Assembly: GCF_963678975.1 (NCBI RefSeq)
Contig: NC_089272.1
Coordinates: forward strand, 59,594,574 to 59,658,573
Length of the DNA: 64,000 nucleotides
Source: Dysidea avara
Lineage: Eukaryota; Porifera; Demospongiae; Dictyoceratida; Dysideidae
Direction: 5' to 3'
In this document: in pieces, positions 17,130-63,715 of the stretch
Layout: the number at the start of each line of letters is the position of its first letter
Position numbering within the stretch: the first letter of the stretch is position 1
Notes under the pieces: generated by a model
Told to the model about the DNA's origin: nothing
Database searches by the model: none
The model's input: only the letters and a program-made list of their open reading frames with translations
Position numbers and translations under genes: made by a program

Positions 17130-19000
17130 ATGAATGTTTGAATATATAAACGATGATAATTTGTATGAGATATTGGTTTGGCTGTATGCACTACCAATCC
17201 AAAAGATCAAGTGGATATCTTTCAAGAAAGCAAGCCACACTGTAGCTATCTGAGATGGAATATATTAGTGTATTTTTCCTGGCTATAGCTATATACATAA
17301 GGGAAAACAAGGAATCTTTTAAAATCAAGCATTTAGAGATTTAATCTGGGGATATAGTTATATTCTGTTTGTTGTGCATGCTATTTTGAAGGCAAACTGG
17401 CTTAATTGTTTCTTAAATTTACACTTTCAAGGAATGACTTTAGCGACAAGTTGATGTGATGTTTTAAAAACTAACTTAATCTCAGAAACTGGGGTCTCAG
17501 GTACTGAATAGCTATATCACTGTTTAGAATATTTTGATTGTCATATATGTACCCTTAAACATTTTAAAATAAAACCATCTGAAAACATTTTAAGATTGTG
17601 TATATAATTCTTTCTTTTCATCCAAAATTGTAAAAAAGTAAGCTGATAAATTAATTAGCACCTATATAAATAACTGTTGTACTTATGAGCTAATTATATA
17701 ATTATGGCTGAGAGTCTGGAAACGAACGCTTTGAAAATACTAGAATTTCCTGAGTGAATATTGTAAATTGCTCAATGTCGACAGAGGTCCAGCAGATGAT
17801 TTTGAGTAGCCCATGATAGAGAATTTTGTCTAGTTTGTAGTATAAAGTAATATTAGACCATATTGCAAGGTTTGGCCAAAAAAAGTGTTTCAGACTACAA
17901 TAATAATTCTTATCCATGGAATCACACTATTTGAAAATTCATGGAAAGTATACAACAGAGAGTCAAAAAAAACCTAATGACTAGAATATCTTTCAGTTGT
18001 ATCAATCACTGTAAAGTTACTGAATATATAACTCCAGTTCCACAATCATGACAAATCTGCGAAAGGCTTCTCCAAGACTACAAAGCCTAGCTTCAATATC
18101 ACTTGTAGTGGTTTCATTCAAAACTTGAGAAAACCATGGTTGAACACGATTCTCGCAACATCTACTGGTAAAGCAGCCAGATCCATCCCACAGTGGGTCA
18201 GCAAATAAATAGTCAGTATAAACCGCACTGACAATAAATCCTGATTCACAGTAATAGTCAGTTCCCACAAAAGACGGAGGGGCTGTTCCTCCATCAGCAG
18301 CACATGGGCAATTATAAGTTCTGAAGTCACCATCAGTACGGTTATCAAAAGATCCAGCAGCATATGTCCAAATGTGTCGACGAGGGCTACCATAAGTGAG
18401 TAATAGTCCATCAGCATAGTAGCCATCAATAGATGTTTGACTACTAAAGGAATCACCATGGAAGGCAAGAGTTTCACCTTTCTGAAATCCTTTTGCTCTA
18501 CCACACACCCTCTGGTAGCTTGTTCCATTAGTGGAGAAGTAGGCAGATGAGCAAGTACTACCAGTATCACTGTCAAGTCGACAAAAACTAACACCGAAGT
18601 TTGTCTCTTCACGCCATCCATTAGGGCAAGCATCTCCTGCACTGATATTGATACTAACAATTCTTCTCCATCCTCCACCCACACCAGCACAGGTGGGGAT
18701 GTCACCAGAAGTTATGTTACAAAGTGTCCATTGATTACCATTTATACGATAGTATCCCTCCTTGTCACGAGTTTCCGGATTATTGGCAAAGATGTCCTCA
18801 CAAGATGATCCAGTGTAGTTCATTCCACAATAAACCTGGGTGGGCCCATCAGCGATCCAGTAATATCCTGGCCTGGCATGACTCTCTGGATTCATGTTAT
18901 AGATGGTTTCACATGACCCTCCAGGAAAGAAAGGTGTTGAAAAATGATAAACTCCACACTGCTCATCAGCAGCAATTACCACTTTATTGCTGAGGATCAC
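17130..19000 (-). repeat. Tandem duplication, copy B (pairs with 11570-13412)
   Basis: The intact member of the duplicated pair: 3' flank at about 17130-18016 and the fibrinogen-like exon 2. Small deletions in the flank relative to copy A show that the event is not very recent. The duplicated block stops at the left with transposon sequence. Confidence 0.8.
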
Positions 19001-22000
19001 TGTTACAAAAAATCAACACCATAACAAAAACACACACAATGAATAATTACAATGCAACTACACAGAAAAGCAAGAAGGTCAGAATAACTTTAATCCTTAC
19101 TGACAGATTGTGGCAGTTAAGTAAAGTAAAGTCACTTATAATTCTTACTACAATGGTAGAGTTTTATTTATCGTAAGCCCTTAGCAAGGCTTGAGCCAAT
19201 AACATTGTGCTTTGAAAATAGCCTATTGTGCTTTTGAGAAGTGCAACTCAAACAATCAATCACATTATGCTCAAAATTAGCTTTCAAAAGTTTTAGAGCT
19301 GACTATTAAACCTGACTGCTATATTAGAGTATCTTGATCCTGTGTGAATAATCAGCCAAGAAACAGTAAAAATAATAACATTACACATTTCTTGAAATGA
19401 TAATGTGTTTTGCAGTATCTTTGGTATGCACATTGATCATCCTATTATGCTGCCATTGTTAGGGATGCGGCGATTATGCCAGCATAATTTCAGGCATCTA
19501 GGTATGTTGTTATGCTAGCATTTTGAGGTGATAATAAAGCTTTAACAGTAGGAAAATCTGCAGATTGCACAATTCCGTTAAAAAATATCGAGATACTCTA
19601 ATAGAGTAGTCATAAAGCTCTCACATTGAAATGGAATACTCTAATACAGTAACCAGCTAAAGAATTCAAGAAAATGGCCTGATACTAGCCTCGCGGGGCC
19701 AAACCGCCTTTTCTCTTTGCCATTGAGGCCATACCAAATAAATCTTATGTTTCTCGGATTATTTTACCCTCAAGGGTGACCTGGCAGGTCGAAAAAAAAA
19801 AAAAGAAAGAAAAGGATGGCACATGTAGCTATATTAAAATACATACATAGATTTATAACAATACTGTGTATTGACTCCCAGCAGAACATATATAGCTGCA
19901 ATAAATTATATGATCAGTGTGCATCTTAAAATACATGAGTTTTTAAATATCATTTGCATGTATAGCTATATGCCATGTTTGTGCTGTAGGCTATGTACAT
20001 AATAAGTAGCTGCCACACTATACCTGGATCAGCAAAACCTGCCGTGACCACAAAGTTCAAGTGAAGAGACAAACTTTATACATACCATTGGTATGTCCCT
20101 TCTCACTATTAGATATCAATTTATATGTTTAAATTCCATTAACATGTATGTTTAGCATGTCGAATCACTAAAGCCAAGTAGCCACTGTAAGCTATATTCC
20201 CATTACCTGACTCTTCTTCTTGAAATTCCGCCGGAGTGACTTTTCTAACCAGTGACCCAAATGTCTCTTCGCAGGAGCACTTCACTATTATTCTGTTTTA
20301 ACGATGACTGCACCTCGTTTCAAAACAACACTAAACGATTCGTGAAGCTGTGGTGCCAGTTTCATCAGCCATGTGAGTTCACATGAACCAATCATGTGAT
20401 TTTTATTTTTTCAGAAAAGTGAAATTGTTGACCCGCCGCATCCGAGAAACATAAAATTAATTTGTGATGGCCTGAGTAGGGAGGGAAAAAAGCGGTCTGG
20501 CCATGCGAGACTAGCCTGATACAGCAATAAACTGGCATTATTAGCGGAATAATGGGCGGCAATTCTCAAATGCAGTATTTCCTGATCATGAGTAGCCAGA
20601 AAGGCATTATTATTATATTTACGATTACTGTGCAGCAATCAAAAGATTATAACGCACAGGTGTGATCATAAAAGTTACTTAAGTTATTACAAAACTCATT
20701 AGGAGTAGAGGAATTAATTACATCAGCAGGGAGTTGGTTCCATAATTTGATGGTTGATGGGAAAAAGGAAAATTTGTATGCATCAATTGGCATTTACGTA
20801 TAGAGCTGCTGGATTTGCCTTGCTTGTGTTGACACGTGCTAGCTAATGCTGTAGTCTCGCGTGGCCAGACCGCTTTTTTTCTCTTTGTCATTGGGTAGGG
20901 AGAAAAAAGGGTCTGGAACAGTTCGAATCCCACAATCGTCTTGACACGTCACGAGGCTACGTCACAAGTATGCAACCCATGCGCTTAAACTCCATTGTAA
21001 CAAGAATGCCACAGCACAACAATAAACAAAGACTTAGCTTACCTAAACAGCTAACATTCGATTCAATCTATTATCGCCTCAAAGGCAGCTTTAGATGCTG
21101 ATAGGTTTATAAATACGCGCTTGAAATTGATTGACGCAAGCGGCTACTATTTGAAAACGCATCACGTTTCAGTTTGGTTAACACCCCCGAATTAACCGGG
21201 GAGTGACAAGACGAGTGTGGGATTCGAACTGTTCCAGACTCTTTTTCTCCCTACCCAATGACAAAGAGAAAAAAGCGGTCTGGCCACGCGAGACTAGCTA
21301 GTGCTGCACTTAGGGGGCATCTCCAAACTGATTTTGGTACGCTTAACGTCATAATTACGTTAAGGGGGGAGAGGGGCTCAGCCCATGACGTTATTAATTT
21401 TAAGTATTAAAGCAGTTATAGTGTAAACAGCTATAGAACAGAGAAAGTGACGTGATTAAACAGCTATACTGTTTGTAGACTAGTCTCGCGCAGCCAGACC
21501 ACTATTTCTCCCAACGGCGCTTATCGATTAGAGATTATAAGCGCCTGCTCGAAATAGGGTCTGGTACACTTCCAATGGGCCAGTTGTGACAGCACCCGGC
21601 AGGAATGTGAAGTGTCGATTACACCGCTCGAAAAGGCGTTAACAAGCACACGTAAGAATTCGCCATTGCATGCTGGTTCTTTTTTATTTAAATTTTAAGG
21701 GTGCATTATCAACACCTATAAATTCTAATCGAGGTGCTGTCACAACTGGCCTATTGGAAGTGTACCAGACCCTATTTCGAGCAGGCGCTTATAATCTCTA
21801 ATCGATAAGCGCCGTTGGGAGAAATAGTGGTCTGGCTGCGCGAGACTATTTGTAGACTATGTTGGCAGGTAAAGAATATAACGTTTGCCGTGCTTCTAGC
21901 TAGCTATTTCCAATGCATTGTTTCATAATGTGACGTTAGCGTCATTATGACGTTAAGCGTACCAAAATCAGTTTGGAGATGCCCCCTTACTAGCCTGACT

Positions 22001-34202: not shown

Positions 34203-35309
34203 TCACTGGATGTAAAGCTCCAGTTGATCAACCAAGGGAGATGCAGCATTAAAAAGGAAAAATGAACATATTCTAGCTTCTATATCACTTGTAGTGATCC
34301 CACTCAACTCATAATAGAACCATGGTTGGGTAGTACTGCTGCAACAATGGCTTTCAATGCAACCAGATCTGTCCCACAATGGGTCATTGAAGTAATATGC
34401 AGATGTATCTTGAACATCAAGAGCTCCTGATTCACAGTAATAGTTAGTTTGCACAAAGGGAGGAGGGGCTGGCCCTCCACCAACAGCACAAGGACAGTTA
34501 AAAGTAGTATCTGTTAGATTATCATGTCTTCCAATGGTATAACTCCAAATATGTTGACGAGGGCTATCATAAGTGATTAATAGTCCATCACCATAGTAAC
34601 CATCGATTGTCATTTGACCACCAAAGTTGTATGCAAAGAATCCGACTGGAATCCCCTTCTGATATCCTCTTGCTCTACCACACACCCTCTGGTAACTTGT
34701 TCCATTAGTGGAGAAGTTGGCAGAAGAGCAAGCACCACTAGAGTCACTGACTACACGGCAGAAGCTAACACCAGAGTTAGTGTCTTTAAGCCATCCATTA
34801 GGACAATCCCCACCTGCACTGATATCGATGTTAGCAATTCTTCTCCACCCTCCACCGACACCAGCACATGTGGAGAGAAAGCCAGCAGCAATTTCTGTCA
34901 TGTTACAATATGTCCATTGGTCATAATTGATTCTATAGTATCCTGACTTGTCCACAGTTTCAGGATTACCATTGTAAATATTCAAACAAGATGATCCAGA
35001 ATAAGTCATCCCACAAAAAACTTGACTAGGGCCATCAAGGATCCAGTAATATCCTGACCTGCCTTGACTGTCTGGGTTCATATTGTAAATTTCTTCACAA
35101 GAATTACCGAGATTGAAAGGAGACTGAAACTGATAATCTTCACAGTAGTCAGTAGCCATCATCAGTTCCTTAGTGAGGATCATTGTTACAGTAATGTAAT
35201 AAACCACCAACATCATTACCAATAGTGATCTGAACAAGAGGACACAGTAACTACTGAGTGACTGTACAGGATACTTCTGTACAACATCTCCCACTAATGA
35301 GACTTCCAT
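34203..35309 (-). CDS. Secreted or membrane-anchored fibrinogen-like protein, divergent copy
   Basis: Single open exon, 368 residues from the first ATG. Same order as the other copies: SCEEIYNMNPDSQGRSGYYW, VFCGM, then SCLNIYNGNPETVDKSGYYR, then GVGGGWRRIANIDISAGGDC, DSPRQHIWSYTIG, DPLWDRSGC, and the end LELYIQ. By eye it is only about 55-60% identical to copies 1 and B, so this is an older duplicate. The N-terminus differs: a hydrophobic stretch VLLFRSLLVMMLVVYYITVT precedes MILTKELMMA and could be a signal peptide or anchor. The position that is a splice acceptor (cag) in the other copies reads caa here, so either the gene starts in this exon or another acceptor is used. The start is uncertain; an ATG at MMLVVYY is an alternative. 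Confidence 0.8.
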   Translation of the reverse strand: MEVSLVGDVVQKYPVQSLSSYCVLLFRSLLVMMLVVYYITVTMILTKELMMATDYCEDYQFQSPFNLGNSCEEIYNMNPDSQGRSGYYWILDGPSQVFCGMTYSGSSCLNIYNGNPETVDKSGYYRINYDQWTYCNMTEIAAGFLSTCAGVGGGWRRIANIDISAGGDCPNGWLKDTNSGVSFCRVVSDSSGACSSANFSTNGTSYQRVCGRARGYQKGIPVGFFAYNFGGQMTIDGYYGDGLLITYDSPRQHIWSYTIGRHDNLTDTTFNCPCAVGGGPAPPPFVQTNYYCESGALDVQDTSAYYFNDPLWDRSGCIESHCCSSTTQPWFYYELSGITTSDIEARICSFFLFNAASPLVDQLELYIQ

Positions 35310-35813
35310 ATATATTAAAGTTCATACTGTTATAGTATTATGAATATCCTATTGGTCTACTTTCTTGCACAGTCATCAATGTAACTACTGCAGGAAATCT
35401 ATTTTTGGGCATAGTGAATATGAATTGGAGAAGCAGGAAAAGAATTTTTCAAACGAAGTTTAAAGTGCACTTCTTTGAGGGTACCAAGCTATAACCAGTG
35501 ATCTAACAATAGCTATGTTATGCAAAGACTCATCATGTGGCCAAATTTAATATTGTACATAGCTGGGATGAAATAAAATCACTACTAGCTATATATTGCT
35601 ACACCCACTGACAGTGAATACAATGAATTTTGGTACACAAATTAATACATTCAAATGGTTCTCACTAAGAATCAGAATTCTAAATTATTGAACCAGTGTG
35701 ATGTGTTATTTTATTATAAAACGCTCTATTAGAACATTCAGGTATGTTATAAGGTTATATGCATGTGTGACAAGTTTTCTAATTCAACACATAACATGTA
35801 TGTACATTTCCAG

Positions 35814-35881
35814 TCAATCCAGAGTTGTTGAAGATACTGGAGGAGGCAAGCAGTGACAGTAGTGGATCTGTCAGTGATTAA
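35814..35881 (+). other. Candidate 3'-terminal exon of an unknown plus-strand gene
   Basis: After a good acceptor (tgtacatttccag at 35811-35813) the frame reads NPELLKILEEASSDSSGSVS-D and stops at 35881. The composition is protein-like, with an acidic and serine-rich tail. No upstream exon was identified. Function unknown; chance cannot be excluded. Confidence 0.3.
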
Positions 35882-36279
35882 GATGTGACACAATGGTGTG
35901 TATCTTGATGGGAGGAGCTACATAGGACCTCTTTATTATTATATAGAGACTCGCAAGATGCTCTTGGATGGCTGGACCAAGCATGTACTACACAAATAAT
36001 GAAAGCAGGCAGATGGCTCTAATGCAAGACTGTAATCTGCAGCTACTATTTCAAATAATATGCATTCACCTACTGTACCCACTCACTGGGTCAGCAGGCT
36101 AATTCAATACACCCAAAGTCCCACAAGGAGACAAGTACACGCATAGACATACATGTATATACTTTGCAAATCTTCAGTAGCCACACTTGAAGCAAATAAT
36201 GCATGTTGTCACACAATGCATGTAAAAATGTAAATATATACATAAATTAAGTGTACATAAGCTGAATAAACAGTGTCAT

Positions 36280-39200
36280 TTAAACTGGATCATTGTAATA
36301 AGCACTGACAGGTCTCAGATGCTGGTCTTTTTTCTTTTTTCGTCTACCGTCTAAAGAGGATGAAGGGCTAGTATTTGCACTTGTTAGATCCAGTGGGTAC
36401 AGCCCTAAGGCACTTTTTGGTCTCACAATGGGATGTTCATCATCGTCTCTGTCTAGCTCTTCCTGTGATTGTGGCGTACACTTGCTAACAGTCATCCTTC
36501 GAAAGTTTTGTACCCCACCAGGATATGGAGTGGAATAAACAAAACCATCCCTCTCTGGTACAAAGTCCTGTGTGGCAAGTGAATCCTCTTGAAGTTGTGA
36601 ATCTGGTCTGGCTGCAGCTGGCTTTTTTGCAGCAGGTGGATTTGTAGAATCATCAGGAGGGTTGATTGCATCAACAAAGACGGTTGATTCTCTTCCAACC
36701 GGAGACAAGCCATCTATAATATGTGAGTAATGGTCAGCACTATCACTCTTAGTTCGTTGGCTATCTGTAGGAGGTTTATCATCTGGAGTAGTGTGATGAA
36801 TTTGCCTTTGTCGTTTATGCTGCCGAGCCATTTTCCTGGCTGTACTTTCTTCAGTGTGTGTGCTGTAAAATGGATGAACAGCATTTGGTTGAGAAACAGA
36901 CTTCACTAACATTTTGTTTTTCCTAGTAGAGGTGTTTGGAGCTTTGTTCATTCTGCTAGTGGAAGGTTTTGGTATAGTGCGAATAACACCATCTGGGGGT
37001 GAATCTGGTACAGCATCAACCACGGTGGAGTAGTCATCAAACTCATTCGAACCTCTGACATCCTGTGAGCCATGGGTACTTTCTGATTTACGTACATTTT
37101 GTGAAGTTTGAATAACATCTTGTGAACGATAGACATCCAGTGAATACTTGGTATCCTGTGAATTACGGATCCCACTGTCAGCTGTGACAGCATCATGGTC
37201 AGAAATTGGGAAATACTCAAGTGGAACACTACAATGAAATGTAACATCATGTACACATAGAACAAATTAAATAAACTGTACAAAGGTATGATGTCACTAC
37301 TTAAGCACTGTTAGAAATAATGCACATGAAAATAAGCCTACATTATTATACAGAAATTCAGTGCCACGTCCAGCTAAATTGAAAACTTGATTTGTTTGGC
37401 ACACAACCAAATACGCAAACAGTATTTTAACTATTGTAGTATTATTGTAGTAAGGTATTTTCTGATAGTCTTGTTCACAGTATTCATCTTGTGGGCTTTA
37501 TAACAATTTTTTATTTTAGTATCAGTATAGGCGATAGGTAAATTGAATGAAGTTGTCATATGAAAATTTGTTAAGATTTATTTCATATCATGTTTTAAAA
37601 CTCATGTAAACATTAATTTACTGACATGATTTCACATTATAGATTGTACCCTATATGTGATGGCTGACCTTGATGGTCTACGATCATAACCTGCACCATG
37701 GAAAGGGTGTCTGTTAGCATCAACATGACAGTCAACTATCCCTCCTCTCTTTGGTCTGTTGTACTTAATCTGACGTCCTGAAAAGAGAATGAGATATTTA
37801 TCCACATGTCCATAAATATACAGCATAAATTATATCATATGTGCATAGGACTAGCGGTGAAAGGTGATCACTATTGATGATCCAGCTTACCCACTGATCT
37901 GAATGGTAACGTGGATTGAACCCAAATCTGACCTGGTTGTAACCCAGTTTAATAAAAGCAGAGGTATGACTTAGATTTTGACATCATATACTTTAGGACA
38001 CAATGTTGTATGCAAGACACCTGCATTTATACCACAAATTATATACACAGCTTGTAGAGCCATTACACTGGAGGAAGGATTGTTTGTGAATATCAAATGA
38101 ATAGTTACTAACACAAAGTGTTAAAATTGGTCCACGTAGCAGGTAGAAACCCACATGATTCTCATGGCTTCATATATGCCTACAAAGAGTGTGCTGTACA
38201 ATCCTGATAGGTAGGCGCGTACATAATATGCTACATGCGTACAAACAGCAACACACACTCAGAGCATGGTCGGCTGGGTGTGTGTTGCTGTTGCTGTGCT
38301 GGATGACCAAACACAGTTTCAACCATTCATAGGACTACCAGCAAATGAACTACAGGCCATTGCATAACATTAAACTGTCACATGAAATGCCATCACGCAG
38401 GTACACAGTTATAAATTGGTGCAATTCATTGTACAATTGTATACAAGGTTATTCAGCAACCAGATACATGGCACAACCTGATACATGGCACAACCAGATA
38501 CATGGCACAACCTGATACATGGCACAACCAGATACATGGCACAACCAGATACATGGCACAACCAGATACATGGCACAACCTGATACATGGCACAACCTGA
38601 TACATGGCACAACCTGATACATGGCACAACCAGATACATGGCACATTAAAATACAAAATATGTATCTAAGAAACTTTGATGAAATTGTCAAATATTTCCC
38701 TCTTAAAATTTTTACATTAAATTTATTTTAGTGCATTCTGTAATACAACCACTGAAAGTAATGCTGTACTGTGTTGTCTAATTCATCAAAATTACTGCAT
38801 AATTTTTTTTGCACTATACTATACAGGAGAAACTTCAAATTCTTGAAATACCACATCCTTTTAACATACAGCTTGGCTGTTTTGGATTACATAAAATTAT
38901 CACCAGCAACTTTGGTTTCTACTCTGATCTCATAACATGATCCCAAGAAGAGCATTTGAGTAGTTTCAATTTTCTGACAGATAACATAATCCATGTTGTA
39001 ACCTCATGGCAAAGCTATCTCCTTTCTCATTACCATAATGTGTTGATGCTGCATGTGTTGTCAGGGACTCATACATGCATGGTGAAATTCTGTCGGGAAG
39101 ATACCTGATAAATGGCACAGTGATCACAAATTTAGCAGGAAATTGTACATTATAGGCACACAGGTAGTTCCCATGTTATTATTATTATTATGATCTAAAC

Positions 39201-42200
39201 ATGTATTTCGACATCATGAAACACATTTGGTTTATGTTTTCAAACAGATTCAGATTTAATCAGGATATTTCAAAACAACAGATATATGGCTATCAGAATT
39301 GTGAAGCAATTCCTTGCAATAAAGTACTCTTATCCGGATTACTCTTCCAGGTAATGTTTTGTCTGAGTAGTAAAACATCTGGCTGGATCACATGTGATAA
39401 TCAACTACTCACACTCAACAGCACTTATACGTACCCACAAGGTTTCAGAATGAGCTGGTGAAATGAGTTAAATCAGACTACAATATGAGTTGTAATCGAG
39501 TCACCCAGCACTTTCATCATAGTAGTCATTGTGGATTAGACATTACAAGCACTATCTTAGAAAGAGAGAGCACAGACATGTGAAGTATATTTCAAGTGGA
39601 TTGAGGGTGAGATATGGATCCCAACCACCAGATCAGTGGGTCATCTGCATTCGGTCTCAACCAAAGGAATGCTTAACAGTTTTAGCCTTTAAATACTTTA
39701 CATTACAGAGCACAACCTTAATCTGTATACAGCTGCTTAATTAAACAGGCACAATTACCATATCTCCTTGTATAAAAGCCACATTTGATTAAACGCCTGT
39801 CTCGATTATAAGCCAGGGATTTTCCAGCACCTTTGGAAATTAAATGCCTGGCCTCAAATAGAGGCCCAGGCCATTACTTGAGTCTACTGTTAATGGTTTT
39901 AATTGCTTCTCTTGTTGCTGCTTCTTCTTCATACTTGAGTTTAGAGCCTTCTGAGGAATGGAGGTACTATGAGTGATCATGTGAGTAGTCCGGGCAACTC
40001 CACATGTATACAGATATGTATGAATATTTTCAAACCATTTTAAACCTTGCCTATATATTCAACACGGTGTATCATCACTGTTTTCTATGCTTACCAGCCA
40101 TTACAGTATTTCCATTCTACCATCACCTGAACTGATTCGCCAGGCATCAGTCGGACCAATCAAAAATAAATTCCCGGTTTCAAATAAAGGCCCTATTCAT
40201 TTACAGGCTGGGTCAAAAATGCTGATAAGGAAATAAAAGCCCAGGCTTTTATATGAAGAAATACAGTACTAATGCAGTACTGTACAGCAGGTTATATTAA
40301 TGGAGGTCAAAATTTGCTATCTTACAAAAAAAAGGCTGAAATTATATTTCCAAAGTGAATAGTAAAATTGCAATGTTACAGTGTGTAGACGTATCGATAT
40401 AATATATTGCCTCTGGTGTATCACAATACGGTGATATATTGCACGATACAAAGTGGAGTCTAAACAATGGTCTAGGTCATTTTTTAACTATTTTTTTCTG
40501 AGAAACATTACATACTATTCAGTTTAACCACAATATACAATAATTTGATTGTCAGCCATATTAACAAGCCACGATATGTGACCGGATTTGCAAAAAGGGG
40601 TCTTCCACACACATCCAATTCTATGAATTTGATTGTCAAAACAGATACAAACCTCACGTTTTCTCCATCAATTACCCTATGTTGGTTCTCACTACAGCCC
40701 AAATTTAAAGTCAATATCTTATTGTAATTTGAAATTATGAATCATCAAAGTTGGTATATTGGATGTGTGTGGAAGACCCCTTTTCGCAAATCTGGTCACA
40801 CAATGCAGATACATCATGATACGCAATATATTGATATGGTTTGACTGTGTATTGACACAGCGATATTACACTAAAATTTGCTATAGTATCTGAAGAAATA
40901 TGTAGCATTACAGAGAAATCGTTCATTGCTTACAGATTTAGTGATTGCAGAAATTTATGCTACGGTGCTATTGGCTACTTGGCAAATATTGAACTTTGTA
41001 CGTATGACACACTGCATGCATGCTAAGAATGATGACACATATTGAATTTATTGGTTAATAATCAATACATTACACGCCCCAAAATATGTAAAATGCTTAA
41101 AATGGTGTAAAAACACAGTAATTATCGTGTATTTTTGAAGCGCCCACAACATTATTTAGTGGTACCCACAAAAAACGGTCTGTTAATTACTCACATACCT
41201 CTAAGGAATACTCCACCTTACATGGGCCTAGCACAGTTTCTGACCCCAGTTTGTCACTTTGCCCAATGCATAATGTATTGTGGGATTCACTTGTTACCAA
41301 GACTATTAATTCACGTTAAACTAATTAGTCTAAACACAAAATACAGTCTGGAACATTGTGTACATAAAAATACACAAAATTAATATCAAGTCTTTCAATA
41401 TTATATTCCTTCTGCAATAAGCTAGAACACAGATATCCACATTAAAACAACTAGCTAGCTACATAGCTTGTTTTGTTCACTATAGCACTTAAAAAGAAGT
41501 GTCTTTAAAATCTGGGCCTAAAAGATCTGACAAATCCTATTATGTGATCAGCCGTACTTAATAGTACTGTGCAAAAACTTTCTAAAAGTGTTCAGATATT
41601 AGCCAGAAATGGTCGGAAAATGGCAGATGTCTGATCATAATTTCAGACTCTGAAACTTGATACATACCGTACCAATCACTGTGAAAACTTTGCATTATGC
41701 ATTTTATAGGCTGCTCTACAGAATCAATCACTATTGGTACATAGGAGACAGAATTACATTATGTATGTCACATCCTCTGGGTAGACAGTGGTATGGTTGA
41801 CATCATAAGAATGTAATAATATTGATCATTCACAGAACTACATATGGTGCACTTTTATATATGAGATCACTTTGAGAATATTCATTGACATATAATCTTT
41901 ATAGGTTACAATATTGTGACAGCTATCATACTGACCTAATACGTAACATGTTTTATTTATGGCACAAACAAAAGCCGAATCATATTAAAATGCATGACAG
42001 GAAATAGTGACAGGAAATAGTGACAGAAGAAACCAAGAAACCATTGATGATTAAGAAAGGCACACATAATCTATTGACTTCAAAAAACGTTCCATAAAGA
42101 AGTAGCTACGTACAATAGTAACAATGTTATTGTGTATGAAAGTGTATTCATATTGAATAGCTATTTTAACGATAGCTACATGAAACAATAACAACACACG

Positions 42201-43323
42201 TTTTAGCTACATAATATGTTACGATTTCAGCTTGGAAATTTATGCAACAAGAAGTGCAATAACAATTCTATTACTCCAGCTAAAATACCTGCTGTCTTTA
42301 AAAACAATTTAAGGGTATATATGTTGAGGACTGTAAAGGCAGTTCTAATGGAATGGCAAGTGTTGCTATGGTAAAGTGCACAAATATTAACTAATCGAAT
42401 TCCCCCAACTTTAATTAGTTAAAAATAAATACAAATATTCTCAAAACATTAATTAACTGTATTACGTACAAAGGCACAGAGTATCTACAACAACTTATAC
42501 AAATAATAATTACAGCTGCCACTCACTTAGGTCACGTATTCTTGTAAACAAGTAGTACCATGTACACGTCAGCATACAAAATAACAATAGGTTGATGATC
42601 AGTAATACCCCTAGCAGTGTCCATGTTAACCTCGCAGTATTGTCCACTTTACAACTCTCATCTGTGCATTGCGACTGGGCGGCAACTGTGTCAGTAATAT
42701 AAGCATTCAAAGTAGTTACAAACCTTTAATTTGTTAGGATACCTACACACTAGTACTGTAGGTCAAAGGGTATGTGTAGGCCTTGACAAAGTAGTGCAGC
42801 TGCCTGCCCTATATACAGTATATAGATATATTCAACTTGCAAATGCAGGACCCAGCCATACAAAACTTTTCCTGTCACAGTTCAGTTGCTGCGTGAGTAT
42901 ACCGATATATCCCAGGTCTGACTATACTCTGGCTGGGCAATGAAAGATGGCAAAGTGTCTAGTGGTAGTTAATTTGTTACCCTTTGATGTCAAGGAAATA
43001 TTTGGGTGTGTAAATTGTCAGACCTGCTCAGAGCTAATGTAGCTAAAGCTAATTTATAAGCTGTTCAACGATTAATGATCAGCTTAACTTAATACTCAAA
43101 GGGCCCATAACCGTCCAATGTGTGAATGAGTTTTACTATACGTAGCTACGTGACTAACCAAGTTAGCTAGCTATGTATGCATACCCATGAAACCTGATAT
43201 CGGCAACATGTGCCGCCGTGTAGCTGGTACTAACGTGTAGTCTCTTGAAAGTGTGTGGTTTAAACGCTAACCTTGTTCAACTGCAGCAGCCAACAGTAGC
43301 AGACTTGTCGGACACACTCCCAT
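36280..43323 (-). CDS. Four-exon type I membrane protein with SQD-repeat tail
   Basis: Assembled from splice sites and phase: exon 1 43323-43272 (MGVCPTSLLLLAAAVEQ, donor AAG|gttagc), exon 2 42685-42527 (acceptor gacacag, donor CTAA|gtgagt), exon 3 37777-37669 (acceptor cttttcag, donor AAG|gtcagc), exon 4 37228-36280 (acceptor cattgtag). Phases 1, 1 and 2 match at every junction; total 422 residues. Order: signal peptide; ectodomain of about 20 residues with two Cys (SQCTDESCKVDN); one membrane helix around LLGVLLIINLLLFCMLTC; basic juxtamembrane IRDLRRQIKYNRPKRGG; cytoplasmic tail of about 330 residues with SQD-type repeats (NSQDTK, RSQDVI, TSQNVR, GSQDVR), proline- and serine-rich low-complexity stretches, and a basic end (GRRKKKKDQHLRPVSAYYND). 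No known family is recognised. The larger introns carry a 17-bp minisatellite and MITEs. The gene lies 211 bp downstream of alpha-tubulin T1 on the same strand. Confidence 0.7.
38458..38644. repeat. 17-bp minisatellite, 11 copies
   Basis: Exactly 11 units of AACCWGATACATGGCAC (187 bp), differing mainly at the W position. It lies in intron 2 of the membrane-protein gene. Because 17 is not a multiple of 3 it gives open frames in all three minus-strand phases, which are artefacts. Confidence 0.95.
39756..40268. mobile_element. MITE-like repeat, TACNGTATWTC ends
   Basis: Inverted ends TACCATATCTCCTTGTATAA and, at 40243-40268, the inverse of TACTGTATTTCTTCATATAA, both followed by AAGCC. The interior has ATAAAAGCC and related words in both orientations. 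Non-coding, in intron 2 of the membrane-protein gene. Superfamily not assigned. Confidence 0.55.
40577..40800. mobile_element. Short MITE, TGTGACC ends
   Basis: 224 bp with about 45-bp inverted ends: TGTGACCGGATTTGCAAAAA at 40577 followed by GGGGTCTTCCACACACATCC, mirrored at 40758-40800. Non-coding; the two small open frames across it mirror each other. No target duplication is clear. Confidence 0.7.
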
Positions 43324-43533
43324 TCCCAGAAGCCTTACGGATGGTGAAGAGCGCTATTAATACACTTACAGCATCAAGAGCAGCTTTATAGTCACGTTAG
43401 CTGACAACACGTCGTCATTTTTTCAAGTGCCGCATGCTTTGTTGTGAAGGCAGCGTTCCAGGTACTGCCTATACTGACCTTAACTAGCTGTTATACCATT
43501 TATGTGCATATATGAATATATTTATAAAAACAT

Positions 43534-46500
43534 TCAACTGTCATATGAATCATCATCATCTGTGTCTGTAATAGTCACACTAGTTATATCATTGTAGTCT
43601 TTCTCAAGGAAGGCTAGATCTTCACGAGCCTCAGAGAATTCACCTTCCTCCATACCTTCTTTGATGTACCAATGTATGAAGGCTCGCTTGGCACACAATA
43701 AGTCAAATTTGTGATTAAGACGAGACCATGCTGCAACAATGGCAGTGTTATTTGTCAGTGAACAAACTGAACGCTTTAGTTTGGGCATGTTCTCACTGGG
43801 GATCACTGTGGGAGATTGGTAGTTGATTCCAACTTTGAAACCAGTGGGACACCAGTCTACAAAATGAACTGAATGCTGAGATTTAACAAAATCAATGGCT
43901 TCATTCACATCCTTAGGTGTCACGTCACCTTGGTAGAGCAAACAGCTGGCTATGTATTTGCCGTCACGAGGGTCACACTTCACCATCTGATTGGCTGGTT
44001 CAAAACAAGCCTTTGTGATGTCAAACACGTTCAGCTGCTCATGGTAACTTTTCTCTACTGATATCAATGGTGCAAATGAGACCAGAGGAAAGTGGATACG
44101 AGGATAGGGTACAAGGTTAGTTTGGAACTCAGCAAGACTGGTATTCAGAGCACCATCAAACCTTAATGAAGCAGTGATTGAGGACACCACCTGAGCAATC
44201 AAATAGTTTAAATTTTTGTATGTAGGGCGTTCCATGCCCAAACAGCGATGACATGCACGATACAATGCCTCGTTATCAAAAACAAATGAACAATCACAGC
44301 ACTCCATTGTAGCATGAGCAGTTAGAACAGAATTGTAGGGTTCAACAATTGAAGTGGAGACACGAGGAGCTGGGTATATGGCAAACTCCAACATTGGCTT
44401 CTTTCTGTAGTCACAAGTAAGCCTCTCCATCAACAGGGAGGTAAAACCAGACCCAGTACCTCCACCTAAGGAGTGGAAAATGAGAAAACCTTGTAATCCA
44501 GTACACTGGTCAGCCTGGAACAATACACCATCACAGATAATATAGTACACATTTTGTCTTACCAGTTTACGAATTCTGCTCATGACCAGTTCAATTAGTG
44601 TCTTCCCAACAGTGTAGTAACCACGAGCATAATTGTTAGCAGCATCTTCTTTACCAGTGATGAGTTGTTCAGGGTGGAACAACTGATGGTAGGTGCCAGT
44701 CCTCACCTCATCTGTGAAATAAGAATAATCACTAAAGTTGTATAAATATGCGCATTAATGTAACCATATATAGAAGACAAAGTTTAGAATGTCAAACAAT
44801 ATTAAATTAAATTTTGTTTTATTAAAAGTGCATTGAAGGAAATGTGAGATACGAGCTTTTTATGTACATCACCTTGGAAAGATTGTTTTCCTCCCTGATT
44901 TTGACTTTGTGGTCGAGACAAGGGATACAGTACCCTTCTATGAATTCTCCTGTTTATGGAGAACATGATAGTACAAGATTCAACTCCATATATTATCGTA
45001 TTTGTAAGCTACAATTGATTTATTAGAAGCCTGCAATTTATTTCCCCAATAGTTGCTATACAAATCGATATTTGCAGTTACTGTATTTCGTAGTGCTGAA
45101 ATTCTTTAGCATATGAAGTACGTATGGCTGGAACAAATGTACAAATACATGCTTCTTTTGAAAATGTTACCGAAGTTTCGAAGAAAGCTTTGATACAAAC
45201 GTCATGTCAACAACTAGTGAACACAATTGTTGGTACACTGTAGTAGTACAAACACTTTGTTATAAATCCAGTATAACCATTGTTTAAACTATAACAAACA
45301 CATAAATTCCAGTTTACATAAGGAGTGACAATACTTGTGCAACTGGTTTAACATGTTAGTATCCATGGTAGCAAATCTTGGTGGGGTAAAGCAGCATCCG
45401 AATGTTAACTTGTCTCAGCTCTAACTGAAACTTTAACAGAGAATGACCTCTATCCGAAATGACGTCACGGAATAAAATGGCTGCTAATAGTGGGGGGACT
45501 TAAATATTTTCGAGTACAGGCACCTATGGAGAAAATTTTTTGATCGATCATATTTCTGCTGAGATAGAAGATACGGAGCTCTAACTATCAGGTATGGTTA
45601 TAAATAATATAAGGATGAACTTACACTATAGTCGAAATCTACAATCAAAAAGCTTCCAAAAGATGCATAAATGATTCATTCAAATGTCTTATAACCATAC
45701 CTGTTGGCTGTAGCTCCGTATCTCTTTTCTCGGCTGAAATATGACCGATTAAAATTTTTTCTCCATAGGCGTCTGTACTCGAAAATATTAAAGTCCCCCA
45801 CTATTGGCGGCCATTTTATGTTTGTGATGTCATTTCGGATAGAGGTCATTCCCTTAGCTATGCAGATACTAGAAAAATACAAATTCAAAAATGCGCAATT
45901 ACAATATGCCACAGATCCTGTTGCATATATTTACTAGTTGGTATATACATATTTACAATTTGTCAAATTCACCTAATTTTATCATTTATCTCACATGTAA
46001 AGTATAACAGGAAATCAAATATTGAAAATTCATTGAAATGTAGCAGCAGATATTACATTACAGAGTGAACAAATGAAAACATATTCATGTTGTTAAATTT
46101 CATTAAGTCCTTCTATGAAAACCTCTCTTAATTAGTGGCCATTTTGTTATCATAGTATATTAGCAGCTACCCCTTTAATAAGATCACCTCATTATAGTGA
46201 CTGTGTTACAAATAAGTCCCAAACATAGCTAATGTGTACTTCATGACCTCATTAATAAGACCACCTCATTATAGTGACCATGTCAAGTAGGTCCCAAACA
46301 TAGCTAAGGTGTACATCATGACCTCATTAATAAGACCACCTCATTATAGTGACCATGTCAAGTAGGTCCCAAACATAGCTAAGGTGTACATTATGACCTC
46401 ATTAATAAGACCACCTCATTATAGTGACCATGTCAAGTAGGTCCCAAACATAGCTAAGGTGTACATTATGACCTCATTAATAAGACCACCTCATTATAGT

Positions 46501-49500
46501 GACCATGTCAAGTAGGTCCCAAACATAGCTAAGGTGTACATTATGACCTCATTAATAAGACCACCTCATTATAGTGACCATGTCAAGTAGGTACCAAACA
46601 TAGCTAATGTGTACTATGACCTCATTATAGTGACCAAGTTAAGAGTAAGTGCTAAGCATACCACATAACAGGTTACTTTTGAAGGAGATATATTTTCGAA
46701 TTGCGAAGGTTCTATGAAAATTTAACTCTCCGAAAAATTTAGATATGGTTAATCTGCTAAGCCTGGAACTCGTTCAGTGCTCAGTCTCTACTATGTGTGA
46801 ACCCATGCTACAGAAGTGTGTAACTGCTGAACCAGGGGCGCATGCAGGAATTTTGAAAAGGAGTTTGCTTTTCCACTTCAGCTAAGTGACTGTTATATTA
46901 GAGTAGTTTAATTTCCTGACTGCTTTATTGGAACATTTTGATCTTTTAACTAAAATCATAAGCTATAAGCAAGAGTTCATAATATTAGAAGATACTGTAT
47001 TTATGAACTCTTGCTATAAGTGTTGCTATTGTGTGAGAAACTAATGTATTTAACTAAGATAAAAATTTACAATGCATCCTGTTCCATGATAGATTCCAGA
47101 TTCTGGAAACCTGAGGTTTCAATTTCTTAATGTTTCAAGTAGTATGTAAAATCCAAAGGGATTTCCCGAAACCCCTGGAAACCCCCCTCAGTACGTCCCT
47201 GTGAACTACAATTACAATTGTCATGGCTTTGCATTGTTATTTTCAAGCCTATTGCTAGTAAGGCAACTGGACCCTAAAGCTACCTGAGATGTCACTCGGC
47301 TTAAGATTTCGCTCTGCACATGGACATGTGCAACGATTCACTCTCTCATAGTTTCAGTCTTGTCTGCAAAACAAAATTTTCCCTAGCATAATGGTCCATG
47401 TTTCATTGTAGACAAAGCTATGACCCTTTATCATTTTGTATTGTTACACATGGCCACCATCTTGACAATAAAATCTGCTATGCACTACCAAAATTATTTT
47501 CATTGGTGCTATGCACGACATTTGAGCATTTCAAAACAAATCTTACAAAATTAACTTTACCAGCTGCTCTTCAAAACCTTCCCTTTCGAAATTAACATTA
47601 TCTGAACGAATGTGTACTTCATGACCTCATTATAGTGACCATGTCAAGTAGGTTCCAAACATAGTTAAGGTGTACTTCATGACCTCATTAATAAGACCAC
47701 CTCATTATAGTGACCATGTCAAGTAGGTCCCAAACATAGCTAAGGTGTACTTCATCACCTCATTAATAAGACCACCTCATTATAGTGACCATGTCAAGTA
47801 GGTCCCAAATATAGCTAAGGTATACATCATGACCTCATTAATAAGACCACCTCATTATAGTGACCATGTCAAGTAGGTCCCAAATATAGCTAAGGTATAC
47901 ATCATGACCTCATTAATAAGACCACCTCATTATAGTGACCATGTCAAGTAGGTCCCAAATATAGCTAAGGTATACTTCATGACCTCATTAATAAGACCAT
48001 TTTACTGTTGTGAATATGCCCAAAATAGTGCAGAAGTGTATTTTCTAGCGTCTGAACAAAGTGAAAGAGCAGGAAAATAAGCTCCCACATGAATGGGGTG
48101 TGGTATTGCGTCATGTCATCACGTGACGCAAGGGTATTTATATGTGTGTAGTGTGCATTATATTCAATCTATGCCACGTGTACAACGTAAGTAGGTTGGC
48201 CCCCTCCCTCCCTCCCTTATTTTCCTTAACAGATTGTTAGGTAGATGATGATGAATTGGATGGAAAGATTATGGACTTGATTGTGATTGGACACAACTTG
48301 TTTTTAGATTTGTCACGTGTTTTATGCATACATTGGGGTGGCGCTCTTTTTGGGTTTTTCCCTGGTGGTTAAAAAAAAAAAAAAGCCACCAGGTTTTTCC
48401 TAGAGTAGTCTTGGGCTGGACTGCTATGAATTTTTTTGTTAGTTTATTATGAATTTGCAAGCCCCTACCCCATTTTTATTCCAAGTTTTCATTGTATAGT
48501 AGGAATTGTCGATTGTGTGTGAGATGTAATCAGTTGTTAATAATGACAGCCAACCCCTAGTGGTGGCACAACCCAGTTAATCATATGGTAACTGCATGTG
48601 TTGGGGTGTAAGGATACAAGTGTTGTGGGAGATGAGTATTCCGATATGTGATTATTCAGTTGGCATGACGTTATTGAATTTTTGCGTAAGCTACGCTGAG
48701 ATAGATGAAGCCAAGCTTAAACGTTAACGTATTTTACAAATAGCTGTCAGACTTAACCTTACTCCCTAACAAAGGTTTCAATACAAATACATGTACATGC
48801 TTAAAGGAATTGAATATCCGGTCATGTTGTTCACAAAATAAATACTGTTGCTATTTTTCAGCACTACCCCAAATAGTGCTGAGCAGTTTTGATACCTGAA
48901 AGATGATATGATATTGTTACTTGATATTGCAGTATAACTATACCTACCTTACCATTTTAGACCCCACTACTAGAGTCACATACAAAAATACAGTCTCTAA
49001 ACATTTTTCTCAAAGCTGTGTTAGTAAGCTTATCAGTCCATATCCTTTAAAAACTACTGTTTTTAAAATCCATGGTATTGCGGTGTTATAGATTTAGACG
49101 GTATCAAAACAGATACCGCGATTTAACTAAATACTTAGTATATTGCACAGCACTACACATAGCTAAGAATAATTTTAATGATCTCAGTAACACCAAGTTG
49201 CATGAAATTATATGTTCCAACATAGATCATTTACACCCCCGGGATAGGAATCTCCACATACTTGCTGTACTTACATGCTGGACTATCTGCACAGTTAATT
49301 GGTGTTAACCGGGAGGAGAAAAGTCTGATCCATTGTTCTGTAGTGAATTTCGTGTTATTTGATACAGCAACTTGTTCTTTACTTTGAATAAGGCGGAAAG
49401 GTGATTGTGGATGCAAAAAAGTGACAAAACTCGCTGACAGACTTAAGCAATTAAAACTATGGCTAGCTGTAAGTCTTGAATTGTTCACTCTAGGAGCGTC

Positions 49501-58163: not shown

Positions 58164-60436
58164 CTAATATCCTTCATCGTCACTATCCCCTATGCCAAAG
58201 GGAGAAGTCTCCACTTCTTCATAATCCTTCTCCAGTGCAGCAAGATTTTCACGAGCAAATGAAAACTCTCCGTCTTCTATACCAACTCCAACAAACCAGT
58301 GGACAAATGCACGCTTGGCATACATCAAATCAAACTTATGATTGAGACGTGCCCAAGCCTCAGCAACAGCAGTAGTGTTTGACAGCATACAGACAGAACG
58401 GTTTAGTTTAGCCATGTCACCACCTGGGACCACTGCAGGAGCTTTGTGATTAATGCCAACTTTAAACCCAGTGGGACACCAGTCAACAAACTTTATGGAA
58501 TGAAGTCCTTTAACTTTGGCAATAGCAGCATTCACATCTTTGGGTACCACATCACCACGATACAGCAAGCAACAGGCCATGTATTTTCCATTATGGGTAT
58601 TACACTTTAACATCTGATTGGCTGGTTCAAAACAGGCTGTGGTGATGCTCTCAGTATCCGACTGCTCATGATGAGCCTTCTCAGCGGACATCAAAGGAGC
58701 ATAGCTTATGAGTGGGAAGTGAACACGAGGGTAGGGTATCAGGTTGGTCTGAATGTCATTGAGATCAAAATTTAGTGAACCCTCAAACCTCAGTGAAGCA
58801 GTGATTGAAGACACAACTTGTGCAATCAGACGATTTAGATTACTGTATGTTGGACGCTCAATATCCAGGTTACGACGACAGACATCATAAATAGCTTCAT
58901 TGTCAACCATGAAGGCACAATCAGAGTGCTCCAAAGTGGTACTGGTGGTCAATACTGAGTTGTATGGCTCAACAACAGCAGTGGAGATCTGAGGAGCTGG
59001 GTACACTGAAAACTCCAACTTGGACTTCTTGCCATACTCAAAAGAAAGTCTATCCAGTAACAAAGATGTAAAGCCTGACCCAGTACCTCCACCAAAGGAA
59101 CGGAAAACTAGAAAGCCTTGCAATCCAGTACATTGCTCAGCCTAAAATAATATTGGAAAAATTCATATGGTCAAACAATAATCTGTGTGACATACACATT
59201 GCCTATTAGACACTTTCAAAATGGTTTCTATTTCTACTAAGGCCATACCTATTGTTTGCTTGGACCGACAAACCCAATTTTGCAGATTTTAATTAAGAAA
59301 AGAAAAAAGATCACGTGACACCTTTGTAATGTATCAAGATACTCTAATAGAACAGTCAGTGGGTAAATGTTTAATCTCTCAAAGTAACATTACGGATATC
59401 TGTAGGCATAGATCACCCAAAACCAGTACCCCTCACCCCTGACTAGAACTTCAGTCCCACCTACAGTTCATTGAGCTGTGTATGTTACTAGCTATATGTT
59501 TATAAATTATCCGTTTATAATTGATTGTCTATAGTATGTACAAGTTGGGCTGGATCCTGAAAAACAGCTAAAATAAAAAAGTGGATTTGTCTCAAGAAAA
59601 TTAACATTTCAGCCAACCAGATGATGAGTGGTGGCAGCAAAGGGTCAACAACAGACACATGTGGTTTGGCTCCAATACAAGTTTGGGAAAGGGTTGTAAT
59701 GGACAAAACACTTTTATGACTTCCCATAGGAAATGTATGGTGAAAATTTTGATTGGCCGTAAATATTGTGATTGCGCATTTGAACGAAAAGATTCTGAAA
59801 TATTTTAGCAGGTCAAGCAGCACTACAAATGAGCCAAATTTCAAGATCGTGTGAAATTCCAACCATTAGTTATATTAACTTTTTATAGGATCCAGCTCAA
59901 TGCATGTGTAATATGACATGTCTACAAGTACAGGAGATACACGACACAACAGCAACAGCAACACACACACACCAGCTTGCGAATGCAGTCAAGGGTTAAA
60001 TCCAACATATCCCTGCCAACAGTGTAAAATCCACGTGAATAGTTGTTTGCTGCATCTTCTTTGCCTGTTATGAGTCGGTCAGGATGAAACAGGTGACGAT
60101 AAGTGCCAGTTCTAACCTCATCTGTTTAACAGCAGTTTGTAGATAAATTATACATTACAACCAACTCACCAACAACGGTTGGTTCCAGGTCTACGAGCAG
60201 AGCTCTGGGCACGTATTTCCCGCTGTCAGATTCACTAAAAAAGGTACCCCGAAAATCAGTAGCTTCCAGTTCATTCTGGACCAGTTTACCATCTGGGTTA
60301 ATTCCATGTTCTAAGCAGTACAGCTCCCAACAACTGTTACCAATTTGCACCCCAGCCTGGCCTATGTGAAGAGAGACGCACTCGCGCTATTGAACATTGC
60401 GATAAAATGTGAAAAACCTTTATGTAAGCTTACCAT
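58164..60436 (-). CDS. Alpha-tubulin T3, divergent
   Basis: Exons: ATG only 60436-60434 (donor gtaagc), 60386-60170, 60121-59973, 59141-58164; 448 residues, all frames open. Signatures: REC...[74 protein letters not shown]. Odd features: the loop that carries K40 in ordinary alpha-tubulin reads [17 protein letters not shown] with no aligned lysine; the segment DLTEF holding catalytic Glu254 reads DLNDI, so Glu is replaced by Asp; the tail is short, [15 protein letters not shown], ending GY instead of EEY. Exon 3 donor is a GT-rich repeat (gtgtgtgtg). Alpha-tubulin pairs with beta in microtubules, and the Glu drives GTP hydrolysis on the beta partner, so the Asp may slow it (inference). Confidence 0.88.
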
Positions 60437-60730: not shown

Positions 60731-62239
60731 CTAATATTCTTCGTTTTCCTCGTCATCATCAGCAGAAGGAGCAGACACTTCTTCATAATCTTTTTCCAGA
60801 GCAGCAAGATCTTCACGAGCCTCAGCAAATTCACCTTCCTCCATTCCCTCACCAACGTACCAGTGAACAAATGCACGCTTGGCGTACATCAGATCAAACT
60901 TGTGGTCAAGTCGAGCCCAAGCCTCAGCTACTGCACTGGTGTTTGACAGCATACAAACTGCACGCTTCACCTTAGACAGATCTCCACCTGGAACCACAGC
61001 AGGTGTTTCATGATTGATGCCAACTTTGAAGCCAGTGGGGCACCAGTCCACAAACTGGATGTTCCGTAGCCCCTTCACTTTAACAATAGCAGCATTTACA
61101 TCTTTGGGCACCACATCTCCACGATACAGCAAACAACAGGCCATATACTTGCCACTACGGGCATCACACTTTAACATCTGACTGGCTGGATCAAAGCAGG
61201 CTTTTGTGATAGTATCAGTGTCAAGCTGCTCATGATAAGCTTTGTCTGCAGAGATTATTGGAGCATAGGTGACCAGAGGAAAATGGATGCGAGGGTAGGG
61301 CACTAGGTTAGTTTGGAATTCATTCAGGTCAACATTCAGTGAACCCTCAAACCTCAATGAAGCTGTAATCGAAGACACAACTTGGGCAATCAGACGGTTG
61401 AGGTTGGTATAATTCGGACGCTCGATGCCCAGGTTACGACGACAGATGTCATAAATAGCTTCATTGTCGACCATGAAGGAACAGTCACAGTGTTCTAATG
61501 TGCTGTGAGTGGTCAGGATGGAGTTGTATGGCTCTACAACAGCAGTGGCGATTTGGGGAGCTGGGTAGATGGAGAACTCCAGCTTACACTTCTTGCCATA
61601 GTCTGCAGAGAGGCGTTCCATTATTAGAGAAGCAAATCCTGACCCAGTGCCACCACCAAAAGAACGGAACACCAGAAAACCTTGCAGTCCAGTACACTGG
61701 TCAGCCTAATAAAAATACTCAAACAACAAACAGCTCAGGTTGTAGTAATCTTACCAGCTTGCGGATCTTGTCCAGTGTTTGATCCACCAATCCTTTACCA
61801 ACAGTGTAGTGGCCACGAGCATAATTATTTGCAGCATCTTCTTTACCAGTGATGAGTTGTTCAGGGTGGTATAGCTGACGATAGGTGCCAGTTCTCACCT
61901 CATCTGTTAATCATCCACACATGTTTAACAAGTAATAAACACTAGTTAACAACTGCTGACCTATCACAGTTGGCTCCAGGTCAACGAATATTGCTCTAGG
62001 AACGCATTTACCGCCGGAAGCGTCGTTGAAGAAAGTGCTATGGGAGTCGTGAGTGTCGCCAACTTTCTCGTCCTTTAGTTGGCCATCAGGTTTAATCCCA
62101 TGTTCCAGACAATACAACTCCCAGCAACCATTGCCTATCTGAACACCGGCCTGGCCAACGTGAACTGATATACACTCGCGCTGCAAGTAGAGAGAAACTG
62201 AGTATTATGAATAACGTGTGTAATTCTACTTACCACCAT
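60731..62239 (-). CDS. Alpha-tubulin T4
   Basis: Exons: 62239-62237 (ATG), 62180-61961, 61903-61755, 61705-60731; 448 residues. Signatures: [78 protein letters not shown] with the catalytic Glu present, and the tail DDDEENEEY with terminal Tyr. The lysine in [16 protein letters not shown] aligns with K40 although the loop is one residue shorter than usual. The first exon reads ATGGTG|gtaagt: splicing straight after ATG would use gtggta, a poor donor, while the better gtaagt gives MVREC. The adjacent stop of T5 is 295 bp upstream. Probably a functional tubulin. Confidence 0.92.

Positions 62240-62533: not shown

Positions 62534-63715
<1,182 letters not shown>

Follow-up and report, generated by a model that had tools for sequence, protein, structure and literature searches.

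We find that four separate open pieces on the minus strand of the window (the whole stretch of 64,000 nucleotides analysed here) are very probably the exons of one animal gene, predicted from genomic sequence, that encodes a single-pass membrane protein. Joined, exons 1-4 give a frame of 1269 nt including the stop, or 422 amino acids, with no internal stops, and the three introns have GT-AG borders and phases 1, 1 and 2. This bears out the original prediction, which had proposed a four-piece join at such sites and in these phases, and we regard it as a strong gene prediction. In-frame stops are present upstream of the exon 1 ATG. The gene may already stand annotated in public records. Its parts, in gene order, are:

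43272-43323, minus strand: exon 1 (52 nt), ATG and an N-terminus resembling a signal peptide, MGVCPTSLLLLAAAVEQ; donor AAG/GTTAGC (phase 1)
42686-43271, minus strand: intron 1 (586 nt)
42527-42685, minus strand: exon 2 (159 nt), end of the signal, short ectodomain (Cys24, Cys29), single helix at about residues 37-64 (Cys54, Cys58) and start of a basic stretch
37778-42526, minus strand: intron 2 (4749 nt), holding a 17-bp minisatellite
37669-37777, minus strand: exon 3 (109 nt), remaining part of the basic juxtamembrane region; the first RPxS word opens with the final residues of this exon
37229-37668, minus strand: intron 3 (440 nt)
36280-37228, minus strand: exon 4 (949 nt), tail predicted to be disordered, in which decayed hexapeptide repeats of SQD(V/T) span about residues 130-164, and the stop
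3' part of exon 4: a further pair of RPxS..Y words close to the C-terminus, which reads NDPV

Neighbourhood, splice sites and chance tests

The window also holds members of a large Cys-rich family, apparently secreted as judged by eye, and a row of four alpha-tubulin-like frames, the first of which alone was scanned against Pfam:

34203-35321, minus strand: Cys-rich family member
5042-6088, plus strand: Cys-rich family member
12546-13318, minus strand: Cys-rich family member
18017-19012, minus strand: Cys-rich family member
43534-44754, minus strand: alpha-tubulin-like frame
58164-59141, minus strand: alpha-tubulin-like frame
60731-61705, minus strand: alpha-tubulin-like frame
62534-63541, minus strand: alpha-tubulin-like frame

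Scoring 110 of 854 candidates in its own genome gave the protein of the 34203-35321 frame at least 116 matched stretches, its own among them, many of them on C1 and C15; neither of the two family members scanned against Pfam had a match over the cut-off. The tubulin-like frames are presumably of the alpha kind. The one adjoining the candidate gene (43534-44754) ends in DDDDSYDS, and the other three end in DEGY, NEEY and GEEY. At 985-2559 on the plus strand there is a 524-residue open frame without a Pfam match; it has 44 matched genome stretches, itself included, its best other genomic copies are 94-95% alike, and it looks like a mobile element. Tandem Repeats Finder places the 17-bp minisatellite of intron 2 at 38457-38645 (11.1 copies, 96% matches). 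Arrays of a 75-bp unit lie at 46175-46627 and 47624-47999, with 6 and 5 copies and 96-97% matches, and apparently share their unit.

As a reference for the splice sites, we tried 44 neighbouring exon pairs from chaperonin and myosin genes of the same genome, located by family matches. An intron was obtained from 31 of the 44, and 13 were dropped for having no site pair that scored above 2. The generic score that later served for judging had also selected these training sites, which biases the training range towards it; read with this bias, the donors and acceptors of the three candidate introns score inside the range of the 31 training introns, with the sole exception of the intron 2 acceptor, which at 6.7 lies slightly above the best training acceptor (6.5). 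A GTTAG-type donor, as in intron 1, is present in 3 of the 31. When ranked among all GT or AG on the window's minus strand, donor and acceptor fall at the 98.9 and 92.4 percentiles for intron 1, at 97.6 (GTGAGT) and 99.9 for intron 2, and at 97.0 and 87.2 for intron 3.

Between 42726 and 46700, 137 candidates for a first exon are in phase. Five of them have a strongly hydrophobic start (>2.0), and of these the proposed exon 1 is alone in having a donor that scores above zero; a better donor than that of exon 1 is found in five other candidates of the 137, all inside the tubulin frame. Exon 3 ranks 7th among the 128 internal-exon candidates at 35000-44000 that cleared loose filters on their sites; of the six with a higher rank, five fall inside exon 4 and one inside the span of the 34203-35321 frame. 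A whole-chain search of the region, using the pattern of a signal-like first exon, a helix exon and a third exon ending in phase 2, returned one chain, identical to the one first proposed. With thresholds that were set when this case was already known, 0 of 70 decoys yielded a chain under strict and 2 of 70 under loose settings, the decoys being mutually overlapping stretches as long as the region, taken from the window on either strand.

If the pieces were instead two transcription units, exons 1-2 would encode a 75-residue membrane microprotein terminated at 42510, and another protein would start in or before exon 3. Exon 2 on its own does, as had been noted before, run past its GTGAGT donor to a stop after SEWQL (42510); there is also an in-frame ATG at 37826, 17 codons before the first full codon of exon 3, and at 4749 nt the intervening intron is long. 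However, two such units would leave the acceptor of exon 3 (99.9th percentile) and the donor of exon 2 (97.6th) without a purpose, the phases fit together at the junction, and few decoys yield chains (0/70, 2/70). We consider separate units quite unlikely.

Codon usage was scored with a table that excludes four stop-rich loci. Exon 4 comes to 0.092 bits per codon, more than any stretch of intron 2 (at most 0.045), and one antisense frame of exon 4 scores 0.069. On the synonymous-only score, exon 4 (-0.024) falls among the intron values (up to 0.005) and the neighbouring tubulin frame (0.042) above them; the codon score of exon 2 is slightly negative (-0.047 per codon). The codon-usage signal is too weak to decide the matter.

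The predicted protein and the search for relatives

Residues 1-20 are signal-like, with no basic n-region, and are followed, before the helix, by QSQCTDESCKVDNTAR. The helix, LTWTLLGVLLIINLLLFCMLTCTWYYLF, starts at about residue 37, reaches a mean hydropathy of up to 2.53 over 19 residues, contains neither Asp nor Glu, and leads into TRIRDLRRQIKYNRPKR; a helix of equal strength is found in 7 of the 361 open stretches of at least 50 residues in the window. A basic stretch lies C-terminal to the helix. By the positive-inside rule the basic side of a helix is the cytosolic one, and from these two points we predict an N-out, C-in (type I) orientation. The joined frame and its hydropathy support the topology that had been proposed, namely a signal-like start, a single helix, a basic juxtamembrane stretch and a long tail. 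An ectodomain of about 20 residues with two Cys had been part of that proposal; the two Cys stand, and the length would shrink to about 16 residues if the signal is cut after residue 20.

Signal cleavage would fall after Ala20, and the two lumenal Cys might form a loop or a disulfide-linked dimer. Within the helix end, Cys54 and Cys58 form CMLTC, a CxxxC spacing, and could possibly be acylated. With about 16 residues, the ectodomain is too short for a folded domain of ordinary size, so that ligand sensing by the candidate protein alone is unlikely, and any ligand-binding part would be supplied by another protein.

We searched the genome assembly (550,814,596 bases, 108 contigs) for related sequences. 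The whole protein gave four matches at E<=10, which are its own four exons, and no paralog; exon-4 DNA has a single match. The helix-juxtamembrane piece gave five, three of them own exons and two weak (24-25%, E 0.43 and 4.0), which we took as chance. For the joined protein no Pfam family came over its cut-off, and no PDB chain was found at E<=10. The only Pfam family at E<=10 was DUF2615 (PF11027), which we take to be SMIM14, at residues 20-78 with E 0.61 and 10.6 bits against a cut-off of 23.4. We rejected membership because this match is under the cut-off and one over the cut-off lies elsewhere in the same genome (C14); the latter covers profile positions 2-31, a part that the candidate protein leaves unmatched.

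Against prokaryote genomes and viral contigs, scanned in case host contigs had strayed there, the exon-4 frame gave 39 and 3 pattern matches, respectively, and, as expected, no relatives, and Rfam gave nothing at its gathering threshold over the whole window. Literature on TRAPs, DAP12/ITAM evolution, sponge orphan genes and sponge genomes contained nothing on the candidate protein among the matches listed, and we found none that joined transmembrane adaptor proteins with sponge, SH2 domain and tyrosine kinase. Within its own genome, Pfam, PDB, and prokaryote and viral contigs, the candidate protein appears to be an orphan, in agreement with the first reading of the DNA, in which no family was recognised.

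The tail and its possible functions

The tail is predicted from its composition to be disordered, with six of six tested stretches (partly overlapping) on the disordered side by charge-hydropathy. An AlphaFold2 model of the exon-4 frame alone agrees, with a mean pLDDT of 44.3 and no residue at 70 or above; it was made from a single sequence with no alignment, and as such models are often poor, its low pLDDT is weak evidence for disorder.

Several short words recur in the tail. SQD, the only one of these recurrent words that was not defined post hoc, occurs 3 times against 0.21 in shuffles. The rest were defined on the tail itself, so that their rarity is overstated: S[QL][DN][VT] occurs 5 times against 0.08, RPxS 4 times against 0.31, and a Tyr follows within seven residues in three of the four RPxS words (RPSSVPLEY, RPKSALGLY and RPVSAY) against 0.06 in shuffles. 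Patterns set post hoc around the D(A/G) stretches 173-181 and 274-281 were likewise commoner than in shuffles (2 against 0.02; 7 against 0.82). The general basophilic site [RK]xx[ST] was not significantly raised in the tail (13 against 9.27 in shuffles), and neither PxxP nor [ST]P was significantly above shuffles.

In the DNA, the five S[QL][DN][VT] words start, by eye, with YTCAC and follow one another at spacings of 18, 18, 21 and 36 nt. From these starts and spacings, the SQD words most simply go back to an 18-nt unit whose repeats have decayed. In exon 4, no array was picked up by Tandem Repeats Finder, and the whole tail aligned with itself scored at best 40, short of the 44 that marks the 95th percentile for shuffles. 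The best account of the SQD words is that they are decayed copies of a short unit rather than a sign of any one pathway.

The explanation that we favour, with roughly even confidence, is that this four-exon gene, seen a single time in the assembly, encodes a type I single-pass protein that serves as a membrane-anchored, disordered docking platform regulated by Ser/Thr phosphorylation. The tail would be a flexible platform at the membrane, and the RPxS(A/V)..Y words would be targets of basophilic kinases and, in phosphorylated form, would bring in partners from the cytosol. The SQD repeats would derive from duplication of a short unit and might act as a spacer or in low-affinity multisite docking. 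The earlier suggestion of a signalling adaptor or co-receptor fares unevenly: the shape is TRAP-like, but ITAM spacing, enrichment of tyrosine motifs and CxxC are missing, and we regard the signalling-adaptor reading as no more than plausible.

A TRAP-like adaptor would have its tail tyrosines phosphorylated by Src-type kinases, would thereby recruit SH2 proteins, and would use its ectodomain as a dimerising stub. The shape fits the description in PMC2803307 of a short ectodomain, one helix and a long tail with several tyrosines, and the candidate tail has 13 tyrosines, including those in YNRP, YSTP, YNDP, YYN, YSTV and YSHI. However, the counts of YxxPhi (3 against 2.33 in shuffled tails), YxN (1 against 0.51) and YxxP (3 against 1.20) are matched or exceeded in 42%, 41% and 11% of the shuffles, the membrane-proximal Cys are spaced CxxxC and not CxxC, and no such family appeared over Pfam cut-offs or in PDB. 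Since the tail shows no excess of tyrosine docking motifs over its shuffles, we do not favour a phosphotyrosine adaptor, possible as it is, and we think its TRAP-like form unlikely.

YxxPhi sorting words and class III PDZ ligands are familiar motif classes, and a protein of membrane trafficking or polarity might use both, with the C-terminal D-P-V as a class III type ligand. The C-terminus NDPV and the words YFPI, YSTV and YSHI point in this direction, and YxxPhi sites are found at Tyr112, Tyr173 and Tyr274. YxxPhi is, however, not enriched and a single terminal match is weak, which leaves this role very unlikely. Control of the protein by ATM/ATR-type kinases through a predicted SQ/TQ cluster, by rule at least three SQ/TQ within 100 residues, is scarcely probable at all: the tail has nine [ST]Q against 3.22 in shuffles, and SQ at 130, 142, 149 and 161 form such a cluster within residues 130-162, but these four of the nine all lie inside the decayed repeat, and the joined topology places the tail in the cytosol, not the nucleus.

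If the gene is real, it adds another orphan membrane protein, seen a single time in its genome and probably from an early-branching animal, with a shape that elsewhere serves signalling platforms. Alone, the candidate gene overturns nothing; it is a sound gene prediction and no surprising discovery.

Comparison with known systems

In DAP12 and CD3 zeta, a single helix follows a short ectodomain that contains Cys, and in DAP12 this ectodomain comes after a signal. In general likeness, unaligned, the candidate is similar to these ITAM adaptors, with a Cys-bearing short ectodomain and then a single helix. An ITAM consists of two YxxL/I about 6-12 residues apart, and ITAM adaptors carry an acidic residue in the helix. 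In contrast, the candidate has no YxxL/I pair at ITAM spacing, has no Asp or Glu in its helix, and has a much longer tail.

TRAPs are described in PMC2803307 as having a very short ectodomain, a single helix and a long tail with many possible phosphorylation sites, and a juxtamembrane CxxC is attributed there to LAT, LIME, NTAL and PAG and not to LAX, SIT and TRIM. Judged from its sequence, the candidate is like the TRAPs (LAT, PAG/Cbp, SIT, LAX, TRIM, LIME, NTAL) in its short ectodomain, one helix and long tail; as a TRAP it would also be phosphorylated by Src or Syk kinases and recruit SH2 proteins. It differs from them in having no match over Pfam cut-offs or in PDB, no CxxC and no enrichment of tyrosine motifs, with RPxS and SQD words instead. 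It is conceivable, if rather improbable, that the protein is a lineage-specific animal transmembrane adaptor, independent of vertebrate TRAPs, in which RPxS(A/V)..Y and duplicated SQD words would replace tyrosine motifs and the two-Cys stub would couple it to a receptor. If real, the candidate gene could help ask whether adaptors with a stub ectodomain arose repeatedly.
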